Shown: piece by piece, positions 15,109 through 54,069 of the stretch
How the letters are laid out: each line of letters opens with the position of its first letter
How positions within the stretch are numbered: position 1 is the stretch's first letter
Source: an uncultured Actinomycetes bacterium
GTDB taxonomy: Bacteria; Actinomycetota; Acidimicrobiia; Acidimicrobiales; RAAP-2
Direction: 5' to 3'
Assembly (NCBI GenBank): GCA_903825305.1
Contig: CAIKAC010000008.1
Span: 1-64,000 of the forward strand
DNA: 64,000 bases
Made by a program: the position numbers and the translations under genes
The notes under the pieces: generated by a model
Told to the model about the DNA's origin: nothing
What the model saw: the letters and a program-made list of their open reading frames with translations, nothing else
Databases searched by the model: none

Positions 15109-18100
15109 ATGTCCCCCGCACCCCACACCCCGGAGGCGAAGTCAGGTTCATTTGGCCCGAATGCGTGGCTGGTTGACGACATGTTCGCCCGATTCAAAGC
15201 AGATCCCGCTTCTGTGTCAGAAGCATGGCGTGAATTCTTTGCTGACTACAAGCCAGTCGTGGCGACCAATGCAGGAGCCAGTGCTGCGACAGCGATAGAG
15301 GTGGCCGAAGATGCGGTGGCGACGCCACTGCGAGGTGCGGCTGCTCGCATTGTGGACAATATGGAGGCGAGTCTCGGAGTTCCAACTGCCACCTCGGTGC
15401 GAACCGTGCCGGCTCGACTGCTCGAAGTCAACCGTCAATTGTTGAACGAGCAACTTGCTCGCACCTCGGGAGAGAAGGTGAGTTTCACCCACCTCATTGG
15501 TTATGCCATTGTTCGCGCACTCGTAGCCGTGCCGAATCTGAACGCCACCTATGTGGCCTCTATTGACGAGAAGGGCACGCACGGCGTGGTGCGTCACGAA
15601 CACGTCGGGCTTGGACTCGCGGTTGACGTGCAGAAATCCGATGGATCCCGCACCTTGGTTGTGCCCTGCATCAAAGATGCTGACACCCATGATTTTCGAG
15701 GCTTCTTACATGCCTATGAAGATCTGGTGCGCAAAGTTCATTCGAATACGGCCGATCCTTCGGACTACGCCGGGGTGACGGTTTCTCTTACCAACCCAGG
15801 GGGCATCGGCACCGTGCAGTCAGTGCCTCGCTTGATGCCGGGCCAAGGCGCCATCATTGGTGTTGGCGCAATTGGCTACCCTGCGGGTTTTGAATCTGCT
15901 GACCCCCGCGTGCTCGCTGATCTCGGCGTTGGGCGAGTCGTCACCATGACCTCCACCTACGACCATCGCATCATTCAAGGCGCCGAGTCGGGCCTGTTCT
16001 TGAAGTACGTCGCTGATTGCTTGCAAGGAGGTAATGGCTTCTACCAAGACGTCTTTGCCGCCATGGGTATTCCCTATGACCCGCGACCATGGGGCCGTGA
16101 CCACCAGTCGGTGGACCAGCTTGACGACGCTGAGCGAATTGAAAAGCAACTCAATGTTGCCGCGCTGATCAATCTCTTTCGCGTTCGAGGTCACCTCGAA
16201 GCCGATCTCGACCCCCTCGCCGTTGAGCCTCCGCCGAGCCACCCAGAACTCGATCCAACCACCTATGGACTGAGCATTTGGGATCTGCCAAGAACCTTCC
16301 AAACGGGAGACTTGGCGAAGCGCAAGACGGCCACGCTCGATGAAATTCTCAATATTTTGCGCGCGGCCTATTGCCGTACCTTGGCGATTGAGTACATGCA
16401 CATTCAAGATCCCGAGCAAAAAGCGTGGATCCAAGAACACGTCGAGGGTGTCGACACGACCTTGAGCGCCGATGAACAGCGTCACATCCTTGAGCGCCTA
16501 AACGAAGCAGAGGTCTTCGAGCGTTTTCTTCACACGCGCTACGTCGGACAGAAGCGCTTTGGTCTTGAAGGGGCTGAGTCTGCAATCGTGATCCTCGATG
16601 AGGCGTTGAGTGCCGCAGCTGATGCGGGACAGCGAGAATCCGTCATTGGCATGGCCCACCGTGGGCGCCTCAATGTGCTGGCCAATGTGGTTGGTAAGTC
16701 GTACCGAGAAATCTTCTCGGAATTTGAGGGCAACCTCGACCCCGATACCGTGCAGGGCTCAGGCGACGTGAAGTATCACAAGGGCGCAACAGGTGTCTTT
16801 ACGAGTGGTGCGAACCGCAGTATTCCGGTGACCTTGGCTTCGAACCCATCGCACCTTGAAGCTGTGGATCCTGTGGTCGAGGGCATGGCTCGAGCCAAGC
16901 AAGATCGGATCTCCACACCATCGGATGGAACGCCTGGAGAGCGACTCGTCCACGACGACGACTTTCCTGTGTTGCCCATCTTGGTGCACGGCGATGCCGC
17001 GTTCGCCGGCCAAGGCGTTGTCTCAGAAACCTTGAACTTGTCCAATCTCTCGGGCTTCCGCACTGGCGGCACGATCCACTTGGTCATCAATAACCAAGTG
17101 GGATTCACCACCTCGCCGGTTGCTGCGCGCTCGTCGTTTTACCCAACGGACGTGGCCAAGATGATTCAAGCCCCCATCTTCCACGTCAATGGTGATGACC
17201 CCGAAGCCTGTGCGAGGGCTGCGCGGCTTGCCGTTGGCTTCCGAGAGCGATTCCATAAGGACGTCGTTATCGACATGGTGTGTTACCGCCGCCACGGCCA
17301 CAACGAAGGCGATGACCCGAGTTACACCCAGCCCGTGATGTATCGCCGCATCGATGAGATGCGTTCGGTGAGAAAGCTCTACACCGAAACCTTGGTTCGC
17401 CGTGGTGACTTGACCCTTGATGAGGCAGAGGCGGCCCTCGATTCATTCAACAACCGTCTGCAAAGCGTGCTCGATGAAGTACGTGAAGTTGCCACTCCAG
17501 AGGTCAACGCTCCGCTGCAACTCGAAGAACCTGAAGAAACGCCAGCACCAATGACCGGTGTCGCCAAGAAGGTGCTCGAGGAGATTGCCGCCACCACGAT
17601 GACGGCTCCCGAGGGCTTTACCATTCACCCCAAACTCGAGCGTCAATTTGGTCAACGTCGGGCCCTCATCGAAGAGGGGCAGATCGACTGGGCGTTGGGA
17701 GAAGCACTGGCCCTGGGCTCGCTACTCGAAGAGGGGACCAGCGTTCGCTTTACCGGCCAAGATGTTCGTCGAGGAACTTTCAGTCACCGCCATGCCGCAC
17801 TCGTGGACTATGAAAACGGTGACGAGTACGTGCCCTTGGCAAACTTGGGTGGCGAGAGTTGGTTCACCATTCGCGACTCCTTCCTTTCTGAATACGCCGT
17901 CGTTGGTTTCGAATATGGCTATTCGGTGGAAGCGCCAGAGGTGCTCACCATTTGGGAAGCGCAATTTGGTGACTTCGTCAATGGCGCCGAGATCATCATC
18001 GACAACTTCCTCGTGGCCGCTGAATACAAGTGGGGACAACAGGCAGGGCTCGTGATGTTGCTACCCCACGGTTATGAAGGACAAGGCCCCGAGCACTCGA

Positions 18101-18726
18101 GTGGCCGTATCGAGCGATTCTTGTCACTGTGCGCGCGAAACAATCTTCGCGTTGTGATGCCCTCTACATCGGCTCAGTATTTCCACCTCCTGCGCAGCCA
18201 AGCTAAGCGCGACCGCAAGACACCCTTGATCGTGATGACACCAAAGTCGCTCTTGCGTGCTGAAGCAACGCGCTCTTCGATTGATGAGTTCACAACGGGT
18301 TCGTTCCAGAGTGTGATTGACGATGAGGTGGCCGACCCAGCCAAGGTGAAGCGAATCGTCTTGTGTTCAGGAAAGGTCAGTCACGAAGCTCGAGCACGAC
18401 GCGACCAACGCCTAGCAGCTGAACGCGATGGTGCCGATGAGGTAGCGGTCGTTCGAGTCGAACAGCTCTACCCTTGGCCCAGCGAGGCAATTGAAACGGT
18501 GATCAGTCGCTACGAAGGGGCGACCGAGTTGCTTTGGCTTCAAGAAGAGCCTGAGAACATGGGTGCGTGGCCCTTTGCTCACCACCAGTTCCACCGAGAG
18601 ATTCGTGATCGCCTCAAGCTCAGCCACGTGGCTCGCGCTGAGTCAGCAACGCCAGCCACGGGCAGTGCCTTGGTGCACCAAGCCGAGGTTGAGGACTTGA
18701 TGACGAGAGCTATTGGCGCCCTGTGA
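15109..18726 (+). CDS. kgd: Multifunctional 2-oxoglutarate metabolism enzyme (E2 acyltransferase-E1 fusion)
   Basis: A 1205-residue fusion typical of Actinobacteria. An N-terminal E1 segment (WLVDDMFARFKADP, residues 20-33) is followed by an acyltransferase domain with the catalytic motif TYDHRIIQGAESG (His near 286). A full thiamine-diphosphate E1 domain follows, with HGDAAFAGQG near residue 627 and INNQVGFTTSP near 660. The lipoyl domain is absent, as in mycobacterial Kgd, so lipoate would come from a separate E2. The enzyme decarboxylates 2-oxoglutarate in the TCA cycle, giving succinyl-CoA with the pyruvate-dehydrogenase E2/E3, or other carboligation products. The N-terminal regulatory phosphothreonine region was not checked. 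It overlaps the next gene by GTGA. Confidence 0.96.
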   Translation: MSPAPHTPEAKSGSFGPNAWLVDDMFARFKADPASVSEAWREFFADYKPVVATNAGASAATAIEVAEDAVATPLRGAAARIVDNMEASLGVPTATSVRTVPARLLEVNRQLLNEQLARTSGEKVSFTHLIGYAIVRALVAVPNLNATYVASIDEKGTHGVVRHEHVGLGLAVDVQKSDGSRTLVVPCIKDADTHDFRGFLHAYEDLVRKVHSNTADPSDYAGVTVSLTNPGGIGTVQSVPRLMPGQGAIIGVGAIGYPAGFESADPRVLADLGVGRVVTMTSTYDHRIIQGAESGLFLKYVADCLQGGNGFYQDVFAAMGIPYDPRPWGRDHQSVDQLDDAERIEKQLNVAALINLFRVRGHLEADLDPLAVEPPPSHPELDPTTYGLSIWDLPRTFQTGDLAKRKTATLDEILNILRAAYCRTLAIEYMHIQDPEQKAWIQEHVEGVDTTLSADEQRHILERLNEAEVFERFLHTRYVGQKRFGLEGAESAIVILDEALSAAADAGQRESVIGMAHRGRLNVLANVVGKSYREIFSEFEGNLDPDTVQGSGDVKYHKGATGVFTSGANRSIPVTLASNPSHLEAVDPVVEGMARAKQDRISTPSDGTPGERLVHDDDFPVLPILVHGDAAFAGQGVVSETLNLSNLSGFRTGGTIHLVINNQVGFTTSPVAARSSFYPTDVAKMIQAPIFHVNGDDPEACARAARLAVGFRERFHKDVVIDMVCYRRHGHNEGDDPSYTQPVMYRRIDEMRSVRKLYTETLVRRGDLTLDEAEAALDSFNNRLQSVLDEVREVATPEVNAPLQLEEPEETPAPMTGVAKKVLEEIAATTMTAPEGFTIHPKLERQFGQRRALIEEGQIDWALGEALALGSLLEEGTSVRFTGQDVRRGTFSHRHAALVDYENGDEYVPLANLGGESWFTIRDSFLSEYAVVGFEYGYSVEAPEVLTIWEAQFGDFVNGAEIIIDNFLVAAEYKWGQQAGLVMLLPHGYEGQGPEHSSGRIERFLSLCARNNLRVVMPSTSAQYFHLLRSQAKRDRKTPLIVMTPKSLLRAEATRSSIDEFTTGSFQSVIDDEVADPAKVKRIVLCSGKVSHEARARRDQRLAAERDGADEVAVVRVEQLYPWPSEAIETVISRYEGATELLWLQEEPENMGAWPFAHHQFHREIRDRLKLSHVARAESATPATGSALVHQAEVEDLMTRAIGAL

Positions 18727-20249
18727 GCAGTCACGTCATTGTTGATGGATCGAACCTCGCCACCGAGGGGCGCACCTTACCGAGTCTGAGTCAATTGGAA
18801 GACGCGGTAGCGGCCTATCGCGACGAACATCCCAGCGCCGAATTAGTCGTCGTGGTTGATGCAACCTTCGAACATCGCGTCGAATCCAAGAAAGAGCGCG
18901 AGCGATTTAAACAACTCGAAGCTGAGGCGAAGATGGTCACGCCTCCAGCAGGGGCCGTCGGCCGAGGCGATGCATTCATTTTGAAGATTGCCCAAAAAAT
19001 GAACGCCATCGTGTTGTCGAACGATTCGTTTCAAGAGTTCCATGGTGAATACCCATGGCTCTTCGAAACGGGTCGCCTCATTGGCGGCAAGCCCGTTCCT
19101 GGCGTGGGGTGGATCTTCACTGCTCGAACGCCGGTGCGTGGGCCCAAGAGTCGAGAAGCCACGAAGAATGCGGCCATTCCGGTAGCCCCCATTAAGAAGT
19201 TGGCCTTGGCGCGACCCGATGGCTCCAAAGCTCGCGTTGGTGACACCTTCACCCCCAAAGCCTTGGTGCCTGAACCAATTCGGGTGCATCAATTGGCCAA
19301 AGAGTTGAGCGTCGAATCAAAAGACGTCCTCGCCTATGCCAAGAAAGCCAAGGTGGAAGCCAAGAGCCATCAGTCCATGCTGGAGCCCAAGGCTGCTGAC
19401 AAGATTCGCGAACTCCACCGCAACGCATTGAAAATCTCCATTGCCCAACTCGCTAAACAATTGGAAGCCAAACCCGCTGAACTCGTGGCGCTTGCCAAAG
19501 CAGCCAAGATCGAAGCAAGGAGTGGAGCCGCCAAACTCGATCCCAGTGAGGCAGAACTCTTGGCCAAGGCGCTCGAGAAATCACGGCGACTAGCCCCAGA
19601 ACCTCAAGCGTCGACTCCTAAGCCCAAGCGCAGTCGCCGAGCGCGGGGATCAGGATCGGCACGAAGTGAAGAGTCGTCTTCGCAGTCGACGCAGGCATTG
19701 GCTTCGAATTCGCCAATTGACTTCATCGCATTTCTTGCGGCGCACAAAGTGGGCAGCACCATTGCTGCCGTGGTTACGGGCTTTTCGAGCCACGGAGCCT
19801 CGGCCACCGTGGATCTAGGCGATGGGCGCAGCTTCTCTTGTTATGTGCCAACGGCACGACTCGGCAACCCGCCACCTCGTAGGGCTCGCGACCTGTTGAC
19901 GAAGGGGGCGAGCTACTCCTTCACATTGGCTGACGTTGACGCCTCTCGCCGCGTTGCGGAACTCGCATTGGCCACCATCGCCGCGAGTGCTGCTGATGAC
20001 GCAACACGAGCGGCACCTGCGAAGGCCAAGAAGGCGACACGTGCTTCAGAAAAGAAAGCCACGACCAAAAAGGCTGCGGCGACGAGCGCTCAGGCTCCGG
20101 TGAAAAAAACTCTAAAGAAGGCCAGCAGCCCTACACGGACTAAGGCCGCGAAAAAGGCTCCCGCTAAAAAGGCGACGGTGGCCGCGAAACAATCGAAACC
20201 TGCGAGCAAACCTGCAGCCAAAGCTCCCAGTGCCAAGAAACGAGGTTGA
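18723..20249 (+). CDS. NYN-domain putative RNase fused to two IF2-N domains, an S1-like region and a basic tail
   Basis: A 508-residue protein, start GTG overlapping the kgd stop (GTGA). Residues 1-135 look like a PIN/NYN nuclease of the Zc3h12a type, with the four acidic positions D8 (VDGSNL), D46 (VVVDAT), D83 (GRGDAF) and D101 (SNDSF). Residues about 186-230 and 238-282 are two copies of the IF2 N-terminal small fold (IRVHQLAKELSVESKDVL and ISIAQLAKQLEAKPAEL). Residues about 343-415 resemble an OB/S1 barrel (GSTIAAVVTGFSSHGASATVDLG). The tail from about 425 is lysine/alanine-rich like histone H1. I infer an RNA-binding nuclease, perhaps ribosome-linked. The combination is not one I recognise as a named protein. 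Confidence 0.75.
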   Translation: MSSHVIVDGSNLATEGRTLPSLSQLEDAVAAYRDEHPSAELVVVVDATFEHRVESKKERERFKQLEAEAKMVTPPAGAVGRGDAFILKIAQKMNAIVLSNDSFQEFHGEYPWLFETGRLIGGKPVPGVGWIFTARTPVRGPKSREATKNAAIPVAPIKKLALARPDGSKARVGDTFTPKALVPEPIRVHQLAKELSVESKDVLAYAKKAKVEAKSHQSMLEPKAADKIRELHRNALKISIAQLAKQLEAKPAELVALAKAAKIEARSGAAKLDPSEAELLAKALEKSRRLAPEPQASTPKPKRSRRARGSGSARSEESSSQSTQALASNSPIDFIAFLAAHKVGSTIAAVVTGFSSHGASATVDLGDGRSFSCYVPTARLGNPPPRRARDLLTKGASYSFTLADVDASRRVAELALATIAASAADDATRAAPAKAKKATRASEKKATTKKAAATSAQAPVKKTLKKASSPTRTKAAKKAPAKKATVAAKQSKPASKPAAKAPSAKKRG

Positions 20250-20251
20250 TC

Positions 20252-20671
20252 ATGGACCCGAAAGAACTGTTGCCCCATCGCGAACCGTTCCTGCTCGTTG
20301 ATGAATTGCTCAGCATCGAACCGGGCGTGCGCGCTACGGGTCGATGGACGTTGACCGGGGACGAATGGTTTTTCCCAGGACACTTTCCCGGCCGGCCAAC
20401 CTTGCCTGGCGTCTTGATGATCGAGTCGTTGGCGCAAGTTGGTGCTGCTGCGGTGTTGAAAGATGACCGCTACACCGGCAAACTGCCACTCTTTGGCGGC
20501 GTGGAGCGCGCCCGCTTCCGTCGCCAAGTGGTCCCAGGCGATGTCTTGGAGCTCGAACTCGAAGTGACGCAGCTCAGCGCGCGCGCTGGAAAGGGAAGCG
20601 GTCGCGCCACGGTAGATGGCCAACTCGCTTGCCAAGCAGATTTGCTTTTTGTCATCGTCGACGCCGGATAA
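20252..20671 (+). CDS. FabZ-like 3-hydroxyacyl-ACP dehydratase (hotdog fold)
   Basis: A 139-residue hotdog-fold protein. It begins LLPHREPFLLVDELL and has the catalytic segment FFPGHFPGRPTLPGVLMIESLAQ (His and Glu), then FRRQVVPGDVLELELEV, all typical of FabZ, which dehydrates 3-hydroxyacyl-ACP in fatty acid elongation. ATG 20252 is chosen over TTG 20246 because GAGG lies 6 bases upstream. It sits in a tight run after the NYN gene and before exonuclease III, away from other fatty acid genes, so it could instead be a FabZ/FabA-like dehydratase of a different pathway. Confidence 0.85.
   Translation: MDPKELLPHREPFLLVDELLSIEPGVRATGRWTLTGDEWFFPGHFPGRPTLPGVLMIESLAQVGAAAVLKDDRYTGKLPLFGGVERARFRRQVVPGDVLELELEVTQLSARAGKGSGRATVDGQLACQADLLFVIVDAG

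Positions 20672-53690: not shown

Positions 53691-54069
<379 letters not shown>

Follow-up and report, generated by a model that had tools for sequence, protein, structure and literature searches.

We asked what role a predicted nuclease might serve when it is joined to modules of initiation factor IF2 and to an S1 barrel, as it is in the protein encoded on the plus strand at 18723..20249 of the 64,000-nucleotide stretch analysed here (the window). An earlier note had proposed this multi-domain reading, and the searches bear it out: NYN and IF2_N both score above their Pfam cut-offs, the S1 region is recovered through a profile of the protein family, and the folded parts are modelled confidently.

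The gene and its NYN nuclease domain

The gene starts with GTG at 18723, ends with TGA at 20247-20249, and encodes 508 aa, a frame far beyond chance given that no frame exceeded 295 codons when the region was shuffled 300 times. It follows kgd, which encodes a multifunctional 2-oxoglutarate decarboxylase/dehydrogenase (15109..18726, +; NF008907, 1743 bits). With the kgd stop codon TGA at 18724-18726, the genes share 4 nt; the earlier note had already described the start as lying inside that stop codon. The next gene, often a conserved neighbour, encodes a fabZ-like 3-hydroxyacyl-ACP dehydratase (20252..20671, +), and its ATG begins 2 nt past the stop.

Residues 1-140 (18723..19142, +) comprise an NYN (Zc3h12a-type) nuclease domain with a conserved C-terminal hairpin. 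RNase_Zc3h12a (PF11977) matches residues 3-109 with E=4.2e-10 (40 bits against a cut-off of 23), and the same Pfam profile is matched by 34/34 members of the protein family. AlphaFold2 models the domain confidently (pLDDT 91, pTM 0.87) in a PIN-like fold, for which the top Foldseek matches are ZC3H12C/B/A (E 3e-7; TMq 0.74 for ZC3H12C), with KHNYN and plant PRORP also among the matches.

The earlier note had seen all four acidic positions of the Zc3h12a-type nucleases in this domain, and D8, D46, D83 and D101 are indeed kept in 43/43 aligned sequences. In the profile-to-KHNYN alignment, D8 (motif DGSN, 18744..18746, +), D83 (motif GRGDAF, 18969..18971, +) and D101 (motif SNDSFQEF, 19023..19025, +) fall on Asp, whereas D46, just past strand 2 (18858..18860, +), falls on a non-acidic residue. 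We accordingly read D8, D83 and D101 as the three certain Zc3h12a positions and predicted metal ligands, and D46 as an Asp kept without exception in the family. The 43-sequence alignment is likewise invariant over much of SNDSFQEF and at the hairpin residues W130..R135.P137.R139.

A bacterial precedent comes from Bacteroides, where three conserved Asp of an NYN protein cluster in the probable active site, the D13A variant no longer cleaves, and the enzyme cuts single-stranded RNA in a Mn-dependent, sequence-nonspecific manner (PMC11346440). Given the NYN match, the conserved Asp residues and this precedent, RNase activity of the window protein is likely, and by analogy its cleavage may be Mn-dependent and directed at single-stranded RNA. 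This Bacteroides fragilis protein, like the window protein a bacterial NYN with a conserved Asp triad, is CRISPR-linked and S1 or IF2_N domains are undescribed for it, whereas the window gene lies among housekeeping genes. The Regnase/ZC3H12 proteins and KHNYN (PF11977) share the NYN fold, the DGSN and SND motifs and the three catalytic Asp positions. In contrast to them, the window protein is bacterial, carries S1 and IF2_N, and gave no match in the Pfam scan to a KH domain or to the CCCH zinc finger that follows the nuclease domain in Regnase proper.

The S1 barrel and the basic segments

A full-length AlphaFold2 model, built with 34 family sequences, reaches pLDDT of about 90 or more across most of the NYN domain, both IF2_N modules and the S1 region, and predicts low-confidence, disordered linkers and tail. 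The IF2_N modules are helical (about 185-290), and residues 331-418 (19713..19976, +) form a five-strand barrel. The S1-like region of the earlier note corresponds to this barrel, which we assign as a divergent S1 RNA-binding domain. In the window protein alone, residues 331-418 gave no Pfam match even at E<=10; PF00575 (S1) is matched by 16/34 family members individually, and a family profile of 46 aligned copies matched ribosomal S1 with E=2e-31, with PNPase, GSP13 and Tex weaker. The assignment comes from this profile and from those 16 members, not from the window sequence by itself. Furthermore, Foldseek matches the barrel to M. tuberculosis S1. The likeness to ribosomal bS1 lies in the barrel itself; unlike bS1, the family has one S1 copy, an SHGA motif and a PPP..AR loop.

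SHG is invariant in the S1 region and present in all homologs but six, whose reading frames leave the contig before the motif. Since every homolog that reaches this point carries SHG, NYN and S1 make up the conserved core, and comparison across relatives shows the conserved protein to be NYN–basic linker–S1. D406 is nearly invariant in the family, and R409/R410 are invariant.

The segments between and after the folded domains are basic and variable. A linker motif, RPDGSKARVGD (residues 164-174; 19212..19244, +), is a variant of PDGSxPKxGD, and a pattern search found the strict pattern in at least 35 of 122 family proteins, a set that joins two overlapping collections and counts some genomes twice; IF2_N carriers and non-carriers have it alike. 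The linker at 141-182 is 90% identical between the window protein and its closest relative, L001. Before the barrel lies an Arg-rich stretch (residues 302-311; 19626..19655, +), and in 73/122 members the 70 residues before S1 include four or more K/R in a row. The tail (residues 419-508; 19977..20246, +) is predicted to be disordered, mostly with pLDDT <55.

The earlier note had called this tail histone-H1-like. Its Lys/Ala composition stands (30 Ala and 22 Lys in 90 aa), but the window protein has no match in Pfam to the H1-like profile HC2 (PF07382), which 2/34 family members match. Of the 122 proteins, 55 have Lys/Ala tracts before S1, 38 have them after it and 4 on both sides, with none detected in 25. 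The tail is best described as a basic low-complexity segment of variable place and no histone H1 domain. Together with the S1 barrel and the Arg-rich stretch, such Lys/Ala segments would keep the enzyme on RNA.

The IF2_N pair in two genera

Two IF2_N modules, as the earlier note had proposed, lie between the nuclease and the barrel. PF04760 matches in two stretches with E=1.5e-15 (57.1 bits for the two together, above the cut-off); the second alone reaches 24.4 bits, just below the cut-off of 25.3. The first module (residues 183-234; 19269..19424, +) scores 43.9 bits in a search of the own genome. The second (residues 235-290; 19425..19592, +) is more diverged, having lost the SHSS motif and keeping 16-28% identity to infB copies, and is also modelled confidently. 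Both resemble the 50-aa IF2 N1 domain in sequence and fold; in contrast to IF2, they stand in tandem and are fused to a nuclease, and the GTPase and tRNA-binding domains are missing. Within the genome, IF2_N is confined to infB (905-aa frame) and the NYN–S1 gene.

Exactly 8/150 genomes of the taxonomic family match IF2_N three times, once in infB and twice in the NYN gene. These are both genomes of genus g1 and all six of g204; the remaining genomes have a single match or none. The NYN gene holds two copies in all 8 carriers. In a tree of NYN and S1, the carriers form one clade (95/94); the kgd tree unites the two genera weakly (67/20), and an NYN-only tree of 142 columns separates them. Two independent gains are suggested by the NYN-only tree and not by the other two, and the pair is probably a later graft gained once, inserted into the flexible linker in the genus of the window and one related genus. 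Because just 8/150 genomes have the pair, the core function of the protein cannot depend on IF2_N. The donor of the modules was sought in the infB of the same genome, which is not singled out, identity being similar to all infB copies. Separately, six genomes of other actinobacteria (G049, G050, G073, G080, G115 and G143) have three or four IF2_N matches each, one match lying in a short frame of 300 aa (G050:C76), so infB may not be the only site of IF2_N in other genomes either.

Is the pair functional? Between the window protein and L001, dN is 0.13 for the first module and 0.11 for the NYN domain, 0.34 for the second module, and 0.5-0.9 for the Arg-rich stretch and tail; dS is near saturation in this comparison, which makes dN/dS ratios unreliable. 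The pair alone could be neutral linker filler with no docking role that arose by exchange with infB at Lys/Ala-coding repeats common to both genes. The variable linker that is K/A-rich in relatives, the K/A tract directly after IF2_N in the infB of this genome, and the divergence of the second copy would speak for this reading. However, the constancy of two copies in all 8 genomes, the low dN of the first copy and the confident models of both argue against filler, which we consider somewhat unlikely.

We instead favour a protein-docking site that probably copies a surface of IF2, with NusA or an initiation-complex component as the partner. In E. coli, the IF2 N1 domain binds NusA directly, in a contact modelled on the KH2 and AR1 domains of NusA (PMC12297416), and, given this direct binding, we rank NusA first among single candidate partners of the graft. 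NusA of the present genome has an acidic C-terminal tail, and Pfam detected no AR repeats in it, despite which NusA stays the leading candidate by analogy. Docking through IF2_N would deliver the nuclease to mRNA that is nascent or newly translated. A more specific version, in which the graft lets the nuclease take the docking site that IF2 uses on the 30S initiation complex or on RNA polymerase carrying NusA and cut mRNA at the transcription-translation hand-over, is speculative and in our judgement distinctly unlikely. If true, initiation and mRNA decay would be coupled by a built-in link of a kind that we know from no other bacterium.

The earlier note had suggested that the protein cleaves ribosome-associated RNA. 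Such cleavage is possible; the argument for it drew largely on IF2_N, the pair of which occurs in 8/150 genomes against 147/150 for NYN. The evidence supports this reading only in part, since IF2_N is scarce in the family and a directly shown partner of IF2 N1 in E. coli is NusA, not the ribosome (PMC12297416). Its most concrete form would be a ribosome-dependent mRNase like Bacillus Rae1/YacP, with S1 and IF2_N as the ribosome contact, mRNA cut at the ribosome and the product passed to tmRNA rescue. Rae1 is an NYN-family endonuclease (PMC11346440) that in B. subtilis attacks mRNA in the A-site (PMC12320835). The window protein resembles it as a bacterial NYN nuclease with a possible link to translation; moreover, IF2_N and S1 are both known from ribosome-binding proteins, and the genome has tmRNA. 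A search with NYN_YacP (PF05991), which matched the B. subtilis control, found no match in the genome. This absence speaks for a Rae1-like role, but it extends to the window protein itself, and orthology to Rae1 was rejected on that ground. The nearest folds are ZC3H12, KHNYN and PRORP, with no Rae1 structure among the 50 Foldseek matches listed. In addition, most orthologs have no IF2_N, so the role would fall to NYN–S1 by itself, and a single S1 domain, found also in proteins such as PNPase and NusA, does not imply ribosomes. The window protein further differs from Rae1 in its extra S1 and IF2_N; A-site action has been described for Rae1. We judge a Rae1-like role unlikely.

Inheritance, neighbourhood and role

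The NYN protein is present in 147/150 genomes of the taxonomic family, including 98/98 good genomes, nearly always as one copy. A search of 296 genomes from the phylum matched the NYN profile in the own order and class only (20 genomes), and in the sampled genomes the NYN–S1 protein was not found outside class Acidimicrobiia. Among 247 genomes of the class, 81 carry the profile, and several families of the order have no match. Phage or viral relatives were absent from IMG/VR and phage records, and plasmid matches were weak, comprising three Pseudomonas plasmids at 32% identity; a mobile, phage or viral origin was rejected on these results. Family-wide, nearly always single-copy presence and the lack of phage or viral relatives argue for a core role.

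Two further observations concern the sampled genomes. Some genomes of the order have a second, shorter, diverged NYN protein (153-267 aa frames), for example at L106 (G287:C36:101805-102074), with similar matches in G504, G536, G558, G562, G589 and G646. Two loci (L024 and L072) lie on contigs labelled Bifidobacterium breve, yet their NYN–S1 genes group with Acidimicrobiia in the tree, and the labels look wrong.

The gene order around the locus bears on the proposal of the earlier note that expression is tied to kgd, a TCA cycle gene. Neighbourhoods were counted at the 80 best-scoring loci, which biases the counts to close relatives, and upstream sequence sufficed at 77 of these. kgd precedes the NYN–S1 gene on the same strand at 63, within 100 nt at 42 and overlapping at 11; it is absent at 14, one of which (L008) is an IF2_N carrier. 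Downstream, among 55 of the 80 best-scoring loci, fabZ lies within 1.5 kb at 38 and an exonuclease III-like gene within 3 kb at 42. The kgd–NYN order is common, but neither overlap nor tight coupling is conserved: these counts describe a conserved neighbourhood that is not tightly coupled to kgd. Cotranscription with kgd in this genome is plausible, with no conserved regulatory logic. No strong Shine-Dalgarno sequence is evident 5' of the GTG start (18690-18730), consistent, in this genome, with re-initiation of translation after kgd. At one locus (L044:2139-3959) the NYN–S1 frame continues into FabZ sequence, through either an NYN–S1–FabZ fusion or the loss of a stop.

This distribution and setting weigh against a defence or toxin nuclease. 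Toxins and CRISPR-associated effectors include NYN and PIN nucleases (PMC11346440), but universality in the family, stable housekeeping neighbours, the lack of phage or viral relatives and the weakness of the plasmid matches make such a role extremely improbable here.

Universality in the family is also what would be expected of a processing enzyme, and the Foldseek match to PRORP, an NYN-type tRNA maturation enzyme, could point to a maturation nuclease in which NYN cuts rRNA or tRNA precursors while S1 and the basic segments bind structured pre-RNA. However, the genome has RNase E/G, the window holds a bacterial class A RNase P RNA gene (53702-54059, -; 246 bits), and several families of the order do without the NYN–S1 protein; we hold a maturation role to be distinctly unlikely. 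As RNase E/G and RNase P RNA are both present, the protein replaces neither, and replacement of RNase P, raised by the PRORP-like fold matches, is ruled out.

The NYN–S1 protein is thus probably a housekeeping RNase. Overall, we favour, with somewhat better than even confidence, a vertically inherited chromosomal endoribonuclease, metal-dependent and tethered to RNA, with IF2_N docking added in two genera; the domains, conserved residues, predicted folds, distribution and restricted graft are observed, and its RNase activity, substrate and partner are inferred. In this Acidimicrobiia enzyme, D8, D83 and D101, and perhaps D46, would hold a divalent metal with which the NYN domain would cut single-stranded RNA.

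In openly licensed papers we found no description of an NYN–IF2_N–S1 architecture, nor relevant work on NYN together with IF2 or on Acidimicrobiia NYN proteins, and we regard the architecture as provisionally new. A predicted RNase that is present throughout the well-assembled genomes of a large environmental bacterial family and, in our sample, limited to one class suggests a lineage-specific enzyme of RNA turnover or processing, unseen in model bacteria. Furthermore, the orthologs with and without the IF2_N pair offer a natural experiment on what the IF2 N1 domain binds.
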